Source: Pseudonocardiaceae bacterium YIM PH 21723
GTDB taxonomy: Bacteria > Actinomycetota > Actinomycetes > Mycobacteriales > Pseudonocardiaceae
DNA: 64,000 bases
Assembly (NCBI GenBank): GCA_003600225.1
Contig: QZFT01000039.1
Span: 1-64,000, forward strand
Direction: 5' to 3'
Shown: one piece after another, positions 2,197 to 45,152 of the stretch
Layout: the number at the start of each line of letters is the position of its first letter
Position numbering within the stretch: position 1 is the first letter of the stretch
Notes under the pieces: generated by a model
What the model was told of the DNA's origin: nothing
Databases searched by the model: none
Seen by the model: only the letters and a program-made list of their open reading frames with translations
Made by a program: the position numbers and the translations under genes

Positions 2197-2675
2197 GGGC
2201 GGACACCCGGCTTGGGGCCGGTAAGCAGGCCCAATCCGATCAGGGCGACCGCCAGACCGAAGTGCAGCCAGTTGTCAGCGGTGTTGACCGGCACGAAGTT
2301 CGCCGCGGAATCGTGGTCGATGACAAGGCCGTAGAGCCACAGCACCAGGTAGATCACTCCGCCGCCGATGAGGAATATGCGGGCGGAGCCGGGCGTGCGG
2401 GCCATGGCCAGGCCGGCGATACCGAAAGCCAGGTGCACGATGTTGTGCAGAACCGAGACCATGAACAACCCGAGCAGCAGCGCCATGGAATGGTGCCCGG
2501 CGAAGGTGAGCTGGTCATAATTGGTCGTCAGCCCGGGAATGAATCCGGCGATTCCCACGAGCAGGAATACGATTCCGAATACGGCTGCGGCCACCTGAAT
2601 GGATGAGGCGGCGGTGTCGCCGAAGAGAGGAAATCGCCTGGAGCGGCCGGCCTGGGGATTGAGTGAATTCGTCAT
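2193..2675 (-). CDS. DUF4383 family membrane protein
   Basis: A 160-residue integral membrane protein with four predicted hydrophobic segments (roughly residues 25-48, 62-82, 88-110 and 130-150) and conserved features of DUF4383: a HxxxLxxGL-like segment in the second helix and HNIVHLAFG in the third. ATG at 2675 is preceded by AAGGGG; the longer open frame to 2756 has no comparable ribosome site and was rejected. Its stop overlaps the start of the FAD-Rieske gene, which suggests they are expressed together. No biochemical function is known; co-occurrence suggests a membrane partner in a redox or stress process. Confidence 0.8.
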   Translation of the reverse strand: MTNSLNPQAGRSRRFPLFGDTAASSIQVAAAVFGIVFLLVGIAGFIPGLTTNYDQLTFAGHHSMALLLGLFMVSVLHNIVHLAFGIAGLAMARTPGSARIFLIGGGVIYLVLWLYGLVIDHDSAANFVPVNTADNWLHFGLAVALIGLGLLTGPKPGVRP

Positions 2676-2779
2676 GGCAGAAACCCCTTGTGGTGGGAGA
2701 ACGGTCGGTTTCGGGAGAAACCAGGGTGGGCGGGACGGCTGCCGGGGCCGGGGCACACGCCCGCCGGGGTGCAGAGAGG

Positions 2780-3247
2780 TCAGTGCTGGGCTGGGCGCTC
2801 GACATCACCGCGCCAGGAACCCGTCTCCTGAGCGCCGCGCTCCTCGATGAAGGCCTTGAACCGCTTCATGTCGCCCTTGACCTTGCGATCCAGGATGCCG
2901 AGCTTGTCGGCGGCGTTCTCGACGAACCCCTCGGGATCGATGTCCATCTGCGCGGTGACCCGGGTGGTGCTGTCATCGATGCGGTGAAAGGTGATCACCC
3001 CGGCGTGCGTGGGGCCCGAATCCGAGGTCCACGCGATCCGCTCGTCCGGGTGCTGCTCGGTGATGGTCGCGTCGAATTCCCGGCTCACTCCGGCGACATT
3101 GATCTTCCAGTGAGTATGGGTTTCATCGAGTTGACGGATCTCTTCGACACCGTCCATGAAATGCGGAAAAGACTCGAACTGGGTCCACTGGTTATATGCG
3201 GTGGTTACCGGGACTTTGACATCAATCGATTGGGTGACGGTACTCAT
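2780..3247 (-). CDS. SRPBCC (START-like) family protein
   Basis: A 155-residue protein of the polyketide cyclase/dehydrase-like SRPBCC fold: an N-terminal strand (VTQSIDVKVPVTTAYNQW), the FESFPHFM segment, a central sheet with DERIAWTSDSG, and a long C-terminal helix (ENAADKLGILDRKVKGDMKRF). Members bind hydrophobic ligands in a deep cavity, but this subgroup has no assigned ligand. ATG at 3247 has AGGGAG upstream. It is transcribed divergently from the alcohol dehydrogenase gene at 3429, leaving a shared 180 bp promoter region in which I see no clear operator. Confidence 0.82.
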   Translation of the reverse strand: MSTVTQSIDVKVPVTTAYNQWTQFESFPHFMDGVEEIRQLDETHTHWKINVAGVSREFDATITEQHPDERIAWTSDSGPTHAGVITFHRIDDSTTRVTAQMDIDPEGFVENAADKLGILDRKVKGDMKRFKAFIEERGAQETGSWRGDVERPAQH

Positions 3248-3428
3248 CAGAAATAACTCCCTGGTAGTCGGGCGTAGTTGTGGCATACCCGGGCTCAGGG
3301 GTTCCAAACAACGCCCACGGTCGGGCTACCAGGCCGGAAACTGCCGGGCGCGCGTCGTTTCAGACGACCGCGGGCGGGTATCGCCAGACCAGGGCAATCA
3401 CCAGCTGAACAGAATCCGAGGAGTCACC

Positions 3429-4625
3429 ATGAAAGTTCTGACCTGGCAGGGAAACCAGAACGTGGAAGTCACCGAGGTCCCGGACCCCCGCATCCAGGAA
3501 CCCACCGACGCGATCATCAAGGTCACCTCGACCGCGATCTGCGGTTCCGACCTGCACCTGTACGGCGTGCTCGGGCCGTACCTGAAGCCGGGCGACGTGC
3601 TCGGTCACGAGGCGATGGGCATCGTCCAGGAGGTGGGCGCGGGTGCCGCGAACCATCTGTCCGTGGGCGACCGGGTCGTGGTGCCGTTCAACATCTCCTG
3701 CGGGCACTGCTGGATGTGCGGCCACGGCCTGTTCGCTCAGTGCGAGACCACCCAGGTGCGCGACGAGGGCAAGGGGGCGAGCCTGTTCGGCTACACCTCG
3801 CTCTACGGTTCGGTACCCGGCGGCCAAGCCGAGTATCTCCGCGTGCCGCAGGCGCAGTTCGGCCCCATCGTCGTCCCGGACGGCACGCCGGACGAGCGGT
3901 TCCTGTTCCTGTCCGACATTCTGCCGACCGCCTGGCAGGCCGTCCGCTACGCCGGCGTGCCGCCCGGCGGCACCGTGGCCGTCTTCGGCCTCGGCCCCGT
4001 CGGACAGCTCGCGGTCCGGATCGCCGCGCACCTCGGAGCCGGGCGGATCATCGGCATCGACCGGGTTCCCGAGCGGCTCGCACTGGCCGAGAAATACGGC
4101 GCCGAAACGATCAATTTCGGCGACCTCGACGGTGTCGACGACGTGGCGACCACCTTGATCGATATGGTCGACGGTCGCGGCCCAGACGCCACCATCGACG
4201 CGGTCGGCATGGAAGCCCACGGTTGGACGCTCGCCGCCGCGGCGCAGAAAGCCACCGGTCTGCTGCCCGACGCACTGGCCCAGAAAGTGACGGACAAGTT
4301 CGCTCTGGATCGGCTCGATGCCCTGTATACCGCGATGAAGGGCGTGCGCCGGGGCGGCACCGTGTCGGTGTCCGGCGTGTACGGCGGTGAACTCGACCCG
4401 CTGCCGATGATGGAGATGTTCGACCGGGGCATCCAGCTGCGGATGGGCCAGGCCCACGTGCGCCGGTGGACCGACGACATTCTGCCGCTGGTCCTCGACC
4501 CGGCCGATCCCCTCGGCACCCTGGATCTGACCACGCACCGACTGCCACTGGCGGAGGCCGCCCGCGGGTACGAGATGTTCCAGGCCAAGAGCGACGGCTG
4601 CGTCAAGGTCGTGCTCAGCCCGTGA
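3429..4625 (+). CDS. Zinc-dependent alcohol dehydrogenase (formaldehyde-dehydrogenase-like)
   Basis: A 398-residue medium-chain dehydrogenase. Catalytic zinc ligands are visible at Cys38 (AICGSD) and His60-Glu61 (GHEAMG). The structural zinc site is Cys91, Cys94, Cys97 and Cys105 (CGHCWMCGHGLFAQC). The NAD-binding motif GLGPVGQLAV follows near residue 190. The subgroup is commonly annotated as glutathione-independent formaldehyde or threonine-type dehydrogenase; the true substrate cannot be read from sequence. ATG at 3429 follows GAGGAGTC; upstream in-frame Met codons lack a ribosome site. Its stop overlaps a GTG start of the next gene (GTGA), so it forms an operon with the SDR. Confidence 0.88.
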   Translation: MKVLTWQGNQNVEVTEVPDPRIQEPTDAIIKVTSTAICGSDLHLYGVLGPYLKPGDVLGHEAMGIVQEVGAGAANHLSVGDRVVVPFNISCGHCWMCGHGLFAQCETTQVRDEGKGASLFGYTSLYGSVPGGQAEYLRVPQAQFGPIVVPDGTPDERFLFLSDILPTAWQAVRYAGVPPGGTVAVFGLGPVGQLAVRIAAHLGAGRIIGIDRVPERLALAEKYGAETINFGDLDGVDDVATTLIDMVDGRGPDATIDAVGMEAHGWTLAAAAQKATGLLPDALAQKVTDKFALDRLDALYTAMKGVRRGGTVSVSGVYGGELDPLPMMEMFDRGIQLRMGQAHVRRWTDDILPLVLDPADPLGTLDLTTHRLPLAEAARGYEMFQAKSDGCVKVVLSP

Positions 4626-5563
4626 GCGGGCGGGTCGTGCTCGTGGTCGGCGCGAGCAGCGGGATCGGGCTGGCGACCGCCCTCGCCTTCGCCGCCCACG
4701 GGGACGACCTGATGCTCGTCTCGCGCAGTGAGGAGGCCCTCCGGACCGCTCAGGCGGCGTGCCGCTCCGCCGGGAGCAGCGAGGTGGACATCGCCACTGA
4801 GGATATCGGCGATCCGGCCGCGGCGGGTCGGATCGTCGAGCGGATCCTGGACCGACATGGACGCCTCGACATAATCGTGCACACCGCGGCGGTGATGGGC
4901 TACGGCACCATTGAGGCGATGCCGGCGGACGTATTCACCACCATCGTCAACACCGCGGTGCACGGCACGCTCCATCTCGCACAGGCGGTGCTACCGGTCC
5001 TGCGCCGCCAGCACGCGGGCGTGTTCATCGGCGTGAACTCGCTTCTCGGCTCGGTCACCGTCCCGCAGATGGGTGCGTACGCGGCGTCGAAATGGGGTCA
5101 GCGTGCCATTCTGCGCACCCTGCAACAGGAAAACCGGGACAAACCGGGTGTACACGTCTGCATCGTGAGTCCCGGCAGCATCAACACGCCGATCTATTAC
5201 CAGGGCGCCAACTACACCGGGCAGGCCACTCGGCCGCCGTCGCCGGTCCTGTCCCCGGAGCGGGTGGCCACGCAGATCGTGCGCCTGGCAGACCGGCCCC
5301 GCGCCCATGTATCGGTTCCGGTCGGTCCGGGCAATCCGCTCGTCATCGCCGGATTCCGGCTGCTGCCGTTCGTCTACGACCGACTCGTCGGTGTCCTGTT
5401 CAGGCTCGCAGCGCTGACCCGCACGACCGTCCCGCCGACCCCGGGCAACGTTCACCGGCCCATTCCCGATCAGGAGCAGGTGCACGGGCACTGGCCGGAG
5501 AGCCTCGGCGATGCCCGGTCAGTCGCCGCGCCGCTGCATGCCCGACGACGTTTCCGGCATTAG
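4622..5563 (+). CDS. Short-chain dehydrogenase/reductase
   Basis: A 313-residue classical SDR. The NAD(P)-binding motif is VGASSGIG at residues 8-15; catalytic Tyr-Lys appear as YAASK in GAYAASKWGQ; a catalytic Ser lies in the GVNSLLGS segment. A C-terminal extension of about 60 residues with hydrophobic character (AGFRLLPFVYDRLVGVLFRLA) resembles the membrane-associated SDRs often paired with other dehydrogenases. The GTG start overlaps the alcohol dehydrogenase stop by four bases, so both are probably translated in tandem on linked substrates. Its 3' end overlaps the convergent ANTAR gene by 45 bp. Confidence 0.87.
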   Translation: MSGRVVLVVGASSGIGLATALAFAAHGDDLMLVSRSEEALRTAQAACRSAGSSEVDIATEDIGDPAAAGRIVERILDRHGRLDIIVHTAAVMGYGTIEAMPADVFTTIVNTAVHGTLHLAQAVLPVLRRQHAGVFIGVNSLLGSVTVPQMGAYAASKWGQRAILRTLQQENRDKPGVHVCIVSPGSINTPIYYQGANYTGQATRPPSPVLSPERVATQIVRLADRPRAHVSVPVGPGNPLVIAGFRLLPFVYDRLVGVLFRLAALTRTTVPPTPGNVHRPIPDQEQVHGHWPESLGDARSVAAPLHARRRFRH

Positions 5564-43188: not shown

Positions 43189-44016
43189 GTGACCGAACTC
43201 GACCAGCAACCCAGCCCGGCGGTGCTCCTCGATCCCGCCGCGCTGAAGTTCGTCTGCGTCGGCGAACTCGTTCCCGACGATCAGGAGATGCACACCGTGC
43301 CGCCCGGTACGAGAGCCGACGAGGCGCTCGCGCTCATGCAGCGGCACCGGTTCGACCGGTTACCCGTGGTGACCGCCAACGGGCGGGTCATCGGCGTGTT
43401 CACCTACCGGTCGTTCGCGCAGAACCTGCACACCGTCCGCCCGCAGGACAACCCGCTGACGCTGCCCGTGGAGGATTTCGTCGAGGACCTGCTGTACGTG
43501 CGGTCCTCCGAGGGCGTCGGCGAGGTGCTGGACGACATCGAGGCCGACGGCGCCGTTCTGGTCGGCCACGAGGACGCCCTGAACGCGATCGTCACCGCAT
43601 CGGACATCAGCCGGTTCCTCTGGAGCCTGACCCGCCCGTTCGTCCTGCTCCGCGACATCGAACTGGCGATCCGCGGCCTGATGAAGTCCTGTTGCACCGA
43701 GGAGCAGCTGACCACGGCGGCCGCCCAGGTGTCCCTGGTGGACATCCCGGGCCGGGCGGTACTCAGCAGGCTGGAACACCTCACCCTCGGCGAGCTGCTG
43801 TCGGTGCTGCTGCACGGCCCCAACTACGGGCTGCACTTCCGGCACGCGTTCGGCGCGAACCGGACCTTCCTGCACAACCTCCTGGAGCCCATCCGGGAGA
43901 TCCGGAACAAGGTCTTCCACTTTCGCGACGAGGTCACCGAGGCGGATATCCAGCAACTGGCGGATGTACGCGTGTGGCTGCGGCGGAAGGTGTCGATCAG
44001 AGGCGGATGCTCATGA
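43189..44016 (+). CDS. CBS-pair protein fused to a HEPN (Swt1-like) domain
   Basis: A 275-residue two-domain protein. Residues about 30-147 carry two CBS motifs (TRADEALALMQRHRFDRLPVVTANGRVIGVFTYRSF and GEVLDDIEADGAVLVGHEDALNAIVTASDI), which in other proteins bind adenine nucleotides. Residues about 150-270 are helical: VLLRDIELAIRGLMKSC, LEHLTLGELLSVLL, then EPIREIRNKVFHFRDEV. The last has Arg239-Asn240-x3-His244, the RNxxxH catalytic motif of HEPN ribonucleases. GTG at 43189 is the probable start. The stop overlaps the next gene by four bases. A nucleotide-gated RNase is inferred; alternatives are a noncatalytic HEPN or a metabolic sensor. Confidence 0.75.
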   Translation: MTELDQQPSPAVLLDPAALKFVCVGELVPDDQEMHTVPPGTRADEALALMQRHRFDRLPVVTANGRVIGVFTYRSFAQNLHTVRPQDNPLTLPVEDFVEDLLYVRSSEGVGEVLDDIEADGAVLVGHEDALNAIVTASDISRFLWSLTRPFVLLRDIELAIRGLMKSCCTEEQLTTAAAQVSLVDIPGRAVLSRLEHLTLGELLSVLLHGPNYGLHFRHAFGANRTFLHNLLEPIREIRNKVFHFRDEVTEADIQQLADVRVWLRRKVSIRGGCS

Positions 44017-45152
44017 ACCAGTTGGCTCGCCTGCACGACCGTCTGACGCGCGCCCTGCGATCTCCTTCGCGCCCGGACCATTCCCGCATCGCGTCGGTCA
44101 TGGGCGCCGGACTGCGCACGGTGCTGGAGTCCTTCGCCCAGGAACGCGCCCTCTCCGGCCACGTCCTGGTGCTGACAGCGGACCGGGCACAGTCCCAGCA
44201 GTGGGCACAGCGGCTGCCGCGCCGGGGGAACACGGTCGTCCGGCTGCTCTCGACCACCGACGCGCTGCACATCCTGGAGCAGCAACCCGCCCGCGCCGAT
44301 CAGATCCTGGTCAGCAGCTATCAGACGATCGCCCACGGCCCGGGGGCACGTGTGCTGGACGACCTGGGCTTCGATCTCGTGGTGCACGATCAGCCTCGCG
44401 TCCAGGACGCCGGACTCGTCCGGAGTCTCGCCGGCAAGACCGCGCACAGCGTCGTCCTTCATCATCTGCGTGAGCAGCCCGCGGTGCCGGAGTGGCCGCT
44501 CCTCTTCGGGCTGACCAGGGAGGACATCGGCGGCATCTCCGCGCAACTACAGATCCAGGAGTGCTCGTACACGGCCGAGCCCGAGGAGCGGGAACTGCGC
44601 ACGGCCGCCTGGCGGGTGCTCTCCGAGATGGGCAGGCCCACCGGTCAACGGGAGATCCCCCAGCTGGTCCGGGCACTGCTCGGCGCCATCTCGGTCAGCC
44701 TGCCCGTGGAGCCCTGGAGCCAGCCGCACCGGATCTGGGAACTCATCGACAAGTTCGAGTCGCTCACCGTCGACGAATCCCGGTTGAAGGCGTTGTCCGA
44801 GACGCTACGCAAGGAGGCCGCCGTCCGGGACCGGGCGGTGATCGTCGTGGACAAGGTGCAGGACGCGCACTACATCGCCCAGTACCTGGAGCGCTGCGGG
44901 TTTCCGGTGCGCAGCATCCTGAGCTCGCGGATCTCCGACGACGTCCGGCGGGCCGAGTTCTCCTGCCTGCGCGCCGGCGAAACGGTGGTGGCGACCGCCG
45001 CGACCTGCGGCGCGCAGGACAACTGGCTACCGAAGACCACCCTCATCTGGTGGCCACATCAGGCGAATGCCTTCATGGACCGCATCCTCGACGCGGCGAA
45101 CAGCACGGAGGGGGTGAAGCTGGTCAAGTTCCACGAGCAGGATCAGTCCTGA
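44013..45152 (+). CDS. Helicase-like (SF2 fold) protein with degenerate ATPase motifs
   Basis: A 379-residue protein that follows the layout of an SF2 core but has lost its motifs. Where Walker A is expected it reads MGAGLRTVLESFA (residues 30-42, no GKT). Where DEAH is expected it reads FDLVVHDQPRV (Asp126-Gln-Pro-Arg). The second RecA-like half (RAVIVVDKVQDAHYIAQYLERCGFPVRSILSSRI...ETVVATAATCGAQDNWLPKTTLIWW) lacks QxxGRxGR. It is probably a structural or RNA/DNA-binding partner. The start at 44013 (AGAGGCGG six bases upstream) overlaps the CBS-HEPN stop, so the two are made together. It overlaps the convergent OhrR-type gene by 10 bp. Confidence 0.72.
   Translation: MNQLARLHDRLTRALRSPSRPDHSRIASVMGAGLRTVLESFAQERALSGHVLVLTADRAQSQQWAQRLPRRGNTVVRLLSTTDALHILEQQPARADQILVSSYQTIAHGPGARVLDDLGFDLVVHDQPRVQDAGLVRSLAGKTAHSVVLHHLREQPAVPEWPLLFGLTREDIGGISAQLQIQECSYTAEPEERELRTAAWRVLSEMGRPTGQREIPQLVRALLGAISVSLPVEPWSQPHRIWELIDKFESLTVDESRLKALSETLRKEAAVRDRAVIVVDKVQDAHYIAQYLERCGFPVRSILSSRISDDVRRAEFSCLRAGETVVATAATCGAQDNWLPKTTLIWWPHQANAFMDRILDAANSTEGVKLVKFHEQDQS

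Follow-up and report, generated by a model that had tools for sequence, protein, structure and literature searches.

A conserved actinobacterial pair of a CBS-HEPN protein and a pseudo-helicase: a DS-11-like two-gene variant of predicted function

As judged from sequence comparison, a CBS-HEPN protein and the pseudo-helicase encoded directly downstream of it make up a genuine and conserved gene pair, a variant of the kind of anti-phage protein known as DS-11; its function is predicted. They occur together in every close locus examined, a pattern that suggests a phage alarm whose sensor may be the dead helicase. Among the papers searched, none describes a CBS-HEPN and helicase pair, and the two-gene form, with a pseudo-helicase tied to an RNase effector, appears to be undescribed.

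The gene pair and its conservation

The window analysed is a 64,000-nucleotide stretch of DNA from Pseudonocardiaceae bacterium YIM PH 21723. Both open reading frames of the pair and their overlap were present exactly where an earlier note on this DNA had placed them. Gene 1 (43189..44016, plus strand) runs from a GTG start to a TGA stop and encodes a protein of 275 amino acids with a CBS pair and a C-terminal HEPN region. Gene 2 (44013..45152, plus strand) runs from ATG to TGA and encodes a 379-residue partner with an SF2 helicase fold. The two share the four nucleotides ATGA (44013..44016, plus strand), an overlap of the kind that goes with translational coupling.

A census of public genome contigs and 1,959 genomes (those drawn repeatedly being counted each time) yielded a close subfamily of 15 distinct loci, or 14 with two near-identical Micromonospora loci merged. 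It spans several actinobacterial families and includes Kutzneria, Micromonospora, Georgenia and Nocardioides. The partner profile matches directly downstream on the same strand in all 15 loci. A 4-nt ATGA or GTGA overlap is available in 12 of the 13 loci compared and an 11-nt overlap in the thirteenth. Four strong matches to the partner profile came from 278 genomes of the window's family, every one beside a CBS-HEPN gene; the weak matches include large SF2 helicases, TOTE proteins among them. Another homologous neighbour is common to only 5 of 91 locus pairs, which rules out shared regional ancestry as the source of the adjacency. Pairwise distances of gene 1 and gene 2 are closely correlated (Pearson 0.97, Mantel p 0.0002). 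The earlier note had thought a standalone two-gene module plausible and had proposed the adjacency of the genes in other genomes as a check; the pair is indeed kept together. One of the records concerned, JOAA01000007.1 (L035/L149), is titled Rhodococcus rhodnii NRRL B-16535, a title that looks wrong, as the genome is placed in the window's family.

The CBS-HEPN protein

The CBS pair of gene 1 (residues ~33-144; 43285..43620, plus strand), read from the letters in the earlier note, is borne out by Pfam (CBS, E 2.8e-14), and the assignment is certain. T136 and D139 of the CBS2 motif T136xxD139 are invariant among relatives. The helical HEPN region that follows (residues ~149-275; 43633..44013, plus strand) contains the catalytic signature R239-N-K-V-F-H244 (Rx4H; 43903..43920, plus strand). 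The note had taken this RNxxxH for a HEPN signature and had named beforehand a lack of Arg/His conservation in homologues as a finding that would speak against it. All CBS-HEPN relatives covering these positions, 14/14 close and 54/54 distant, have R239, N240, H244 and F245 unchanged, and this invariance rules out a chance Rx4H.

Three different HEPN-containing models, all below threshold, match at the RNKVFH motif: HEPN_Swt1 (E 0.036) and DUF4145 (E 0.079) of Pfam, and the Cas13a model of PADLOC (E 0.0028). A HEPN-only profile, searched with the search-space size set to 100,000, recovers 39 of 52 distant relatives at E <=0.01, so the kinship of gene 1 to these proteins is not due to the CBS domains only. 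The structure of gene 1 was predicted poorly (mean pLDDT 65), with helices at residues 200-209, 215-221, 225-244 and 251-273 in this model. Fold searches with it matched the CBS part alone to solved folds and are neutral on the HEPN fold, because CBS matches were all they gave. Taken together, gene 1 is probably an adenine-nucleotide-gated RNase.

DS-11 is a one-protein anti-phage system that has been experimentally validated in E. coli; its defence is lost on the CBS mutation Y157A or on mutation of the HEPN catalytic residues, and its controlling ligand is still unknown (PMC13092281). A 2013 paper (PMC3710099) had already recorded HEPN fusions to CBS domains as well as to SF2 helicases. The earlier note had spoken of an undescribed RNase system. 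Because of this published work the word does not apply to the CBS-HEPN half; for the two-gene form it appears to hold.

Like gene 1, DS-11 has a CBS pair followed by a C-terminal HEPN domain with RNxxxH, and a TxxD motif in CBS2. Residues 24-264 of gene 1 match positions 75-305 of the NCBIfam model NF053863 ("CBS domain-containing anti-phage protein", DS-11) with an E value of 5.1e-30. The score of 104.6 bits is below the curated cutoff of 260; three other members of the window subfamily score 95-119 bits, and an E. coli protein (L152) 404.9 bits. Y157 of DS-11, found in HDYSQLPV of the E. coli member, aligns with F55 of gene 1, which places F55 of CBS1 opposite the adenine-contact residue, with an aromatic side chain in both. 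Of 13 window-subfamily members, 11 have Phe at this position; the other two have Ile and, in a frame-broken member, Tyr. DS-11 differs in having an extra N-terminal domain (model positions 1-75), which the window protein lacks, and in being a single protein, whereas the window form has a pseudo-helicase as second gene in 15/15 loci. By these scores the window protein is a remote relative of DS-11 and falls outside DS-11 by the curated definition.

Plasmid searches gave matches that are 23-31% identical to gene 1, so there are no close plasmid copies among them; the E. coli and Rhizobium proteins from this search that were scored are true DS-11. No plasmid match was found for gene 2, and no phage or viral-contig copy for gene 1. 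At L152 (5626-6723; NZ_CP141089.1) no feature is annotated for the DS-11 protein; the record, listed as an E. coli plasmid, has the size of a chromosome.

The pseudo-helicase partner

Pfam has no significant match to gene 2 itself, and some of its relatives match ResIII/DEAD. The predicted model (pLDDT 79) shows a full two-lobe SF2 fold, with two RecA lobes and no accessory domain, and resembles SNF2, Hef and XPB at VIA Z 15-18 over ~340 residues. The earlier description of an SF2-like protein devoid of ATPase motifs proved accurate, and the loss is family-wide. GAGLRT (residues 30-35; 44100..44117, plus strand) and the D126-Q-P-R that replaces DExH (residues 126-129; 44388..44399, plus strand) occupy the aligned places at which active helicases have Walker A and DECH motifs. 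When 13 partners are compared with active TOTE helicases, the Walker-A lysine is present in 2, the DExH glutamate in one and the histidine in none. A SAT-like motif III is gone and motif VI is unrecognisable. Motif Ia, in gene 2 Q63-W64 (44199..44204, plus strand), is kept (Gln 12/13, Trp 13/13), as is the motif II aspartate (12/13). Two Micromonospora members of the 13 have an intact Walker A, GSGKT. As judged by these residues, the partner is a pseudo-helicase throughout the family. Its nearest active helicases by sequence, among the genomes searched, are the TOTE ResIII/DEAD helicases, which share the N lobe and the QW of motif Ia. In contrast to the partner, these helicases are joined to an archaeo-eukaryotic primase domain and their Walker A and DECH motifs are intact.

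In three close pairs of loci dN/dS is 0.07-0.08 for gene 1 and 0.22-0.37 for gene 2 (a fourth, near-identical pair being uninformative). Gene 2 thus evolves 3-5 times faster than the CBS-HEPN gene, yet is under constraint. Since the residues are lost family-wide and both genes are constrained, the state of gene 2 is not the decay of one copy. A degenerating pseudogene is ruled out: nearly every member has lost the ATPase residues, yet the frames are open in 13/15 loci, and all dN/dS estimates obtained for gene 2 are below 0.4.

Recognition domains of other CBS-HEPN proteins

According to a domain profile, an N-terminal domain of ~75 amino acids, which in E. coli reads SVREFISWFGAERRG...GVKTEPDF, is present in 52/52 distant relatives and in E. 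coli DS-11, and in 0/15 of the paired subfamily. RAMA occurs in 29 of the 52 distant CBS-HEPN relatives, and Helicase_C in one member. RAMA-containing actinobacterial proteins (e.g., L069 and L002) have the CBS-HEPN effector part in common with the window pair, but carry their recognition domains in cis (RAMA and the ~75-aa domain); the pseudo-helicase profile found no match in the searched flanks of these proteins.

A single ORF of ~900 residues (L164, G1318:C118:50500-57500, minus strand 2393-5092) joins a helicase, a RAMA-like stretch (assigned by eye in this one protein), the ~75-aa domain, CBS and HEPN. Its SF2-type helicase has motifs I (GFGKT) and VI (QMLGRGTR) that look intact, and is distantly similar to gene 2 (hhalign probability 47%). 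The fusion thus links helicase lobes to CBS-HEPN as the window pair does, but in one chain, with GFGKT and QMLGRGTR preserved and with the RAMA-like and ~75-aa domains added. Motif II of the fused helicase reads YESQ. The simplest reading of these architectures is that one shared CBS-HEPN effector part is combined with interchangeable recognition modules, and that the module of the window subfamily is a separate protein.

Genomic surroundings

The window copy is flanked by a divergent NAD-binding dehydrogenase gene on one side and a MarR gene on the other. Its GC3 is host-like (0.91 and 0.89; neighbours 0.88-0.94). The neighbours are ordinary genes, as the earlier note had described. In an empty-site comparison, one relative (L157) has the MarR gene next to an alpha/beta-hydrolase gene; of the two sides of the module, only this one was recovered in it. 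In ten other copies the GC3 of gene 1 is 0.63-0.82, often lower than that of the flanks. Near these copies lie integrases, transposases, Vsr and MTES_1575 nuclease matches, C5 methylases and a PDC-M01A/PtuA-like ATPase. The module is also rare and patchy, occurring in 4/278 genomes of the window's family. Mobile elements and low GC3 around the other copies would fit accessory, defence-type genes. In two Micromonosporaceae genomes (L143, 10608-13819; L144, 10345-13529) a conserved block of three genes, one of them for a C5 cytosine methylase, lies directly upstream of the module.

Predicted mechanism and alternatives

We propose a two-gene defence-type module, composed of a CBS-gated HEPN RNase effector and a pseudo-helicase that senses nucleic acid in trans, and consider the chances of this reading to be about even. 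An adenine nucleotide in the CBS pair would either restrain or activate the HEPN endoribonuclease of gene 1, as proposed for DS-11. For the catalytically dead SF2 helicase of gene 2 we infer an association with gene 1 and the role of its recognition subunit, which would probably bind the nucleic acid of an invader and hydrolyse no ATP. Nucleic-acid binding together with the CBS ligand may then let two HEPN domains pair, cut RNA and stop the infected cell. Gene 2 would stand in for the recognition domains that all other CBS-HEPN relatives examined carry N-terminally on the same chain: the ~75-aa domain, in some accompanied by RAMA, and once a helicase.

A more specific version, which we hold tentatively and a little short of even, is that an ATPase-dead helicase has become a dedicated immune sensor: it would recognise the nucleic acid of an invader with no need of hydrolysis and license the HEPN RNase together with an adenine nucleotide bound by the CBS pair, in a two-gene branch of the DS-11 superfamily whose recognition was swapped from cis to trans. 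If true, dead helicases are reused as immune receptors. A sister branch with recognition in a separate, fast-evolving protein would make sensing and RNA cutting testable apart, and the ~75-aa domain, RAMA, the helicase fusion and the pseudo-helicase in trans offer a natural series for finding the CBS-HEPN trigger. In such a mechanism gene 1 would work like the CARF-HEPN ribonucleases of the Csm6 type, which are also ligand-gated HEPN RNases; these have a CARF ligand domain, whereas the window protein has a CBS pair (Pfam and structure).

A rather unlikely but serious alternative is a toxin-antitoxin pair, in which the pseudo-helicase, as antitoxin or inhibitor, ties up the HEPN RNase until infection causes the pseudo-helicase to be lost or titrated away. 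Strict pairing and the 4-nt overlap would suit such a pair. Among known systems, HEPN-MNT toxin-antitoxin operons also have a closely linked partner gene, although theirs is a nucleotidyltransferase and not an SF2 fold. It is mildly in keeping with an antitoxin that no locus was seen with gene 1 intact and gene 2 broken. The reverse occurs at L104 (gene 1 frame-broken beside an intact gene 2), and both genes are broken at L041. However, these broken loci number only two, and the frame changes may reflect decay or sequencing error. The single-protein relative DS-11 works without an antitoxin, which argues mildly the other way, and the recognition-type N-terminal domains of the distant relatives point to a sensor. 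By sequence the partner could equally well restrain the RNase; it is the comparative architecture that favours a sensor role over an antitoxin role.

CBS domains generally sense the energy state of the cell. It is conceivable, if improbable, that the pair is a nucleotide-responsive regulator of RNA decay or stress in actinobacteria that has nothing to do with defence, and the window copy, amid ordinary genes and with host-like codon use, would fit such a role. The rare and patchy occurrence is hard to reconcile with it, as are the low-GC3 surroundings with mobile elements elsewhere, the fast-evolving partner and the validated anti-phage function of DS-11. That the partner, for all its degenerate motifs, is still an active motor, driven by NTP hydrolysis and able to load onto or translocate along nucleic acid, is very unlikely: the whole-length two-lobe fold and the GSGKT of two members would allow it, but nearly all of the 13 partners lack the Walker-A lysine and the DExH glutamate, none has the histidine, and motifs III and VI are gone or unrecognisable.

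The GSGKT-bearing Micromonospora partners (L038, L039 and L040) would be useful for testing residual nucleotide binding; their GSGKT is intact and their DExH glutamate is lost. At a further locus (L032, complement 718-2637, G102) the C terminus of the partner is lengthened by near-identical TPR-like repeats (DELRVLGPDHPDTLSSRNNLA).
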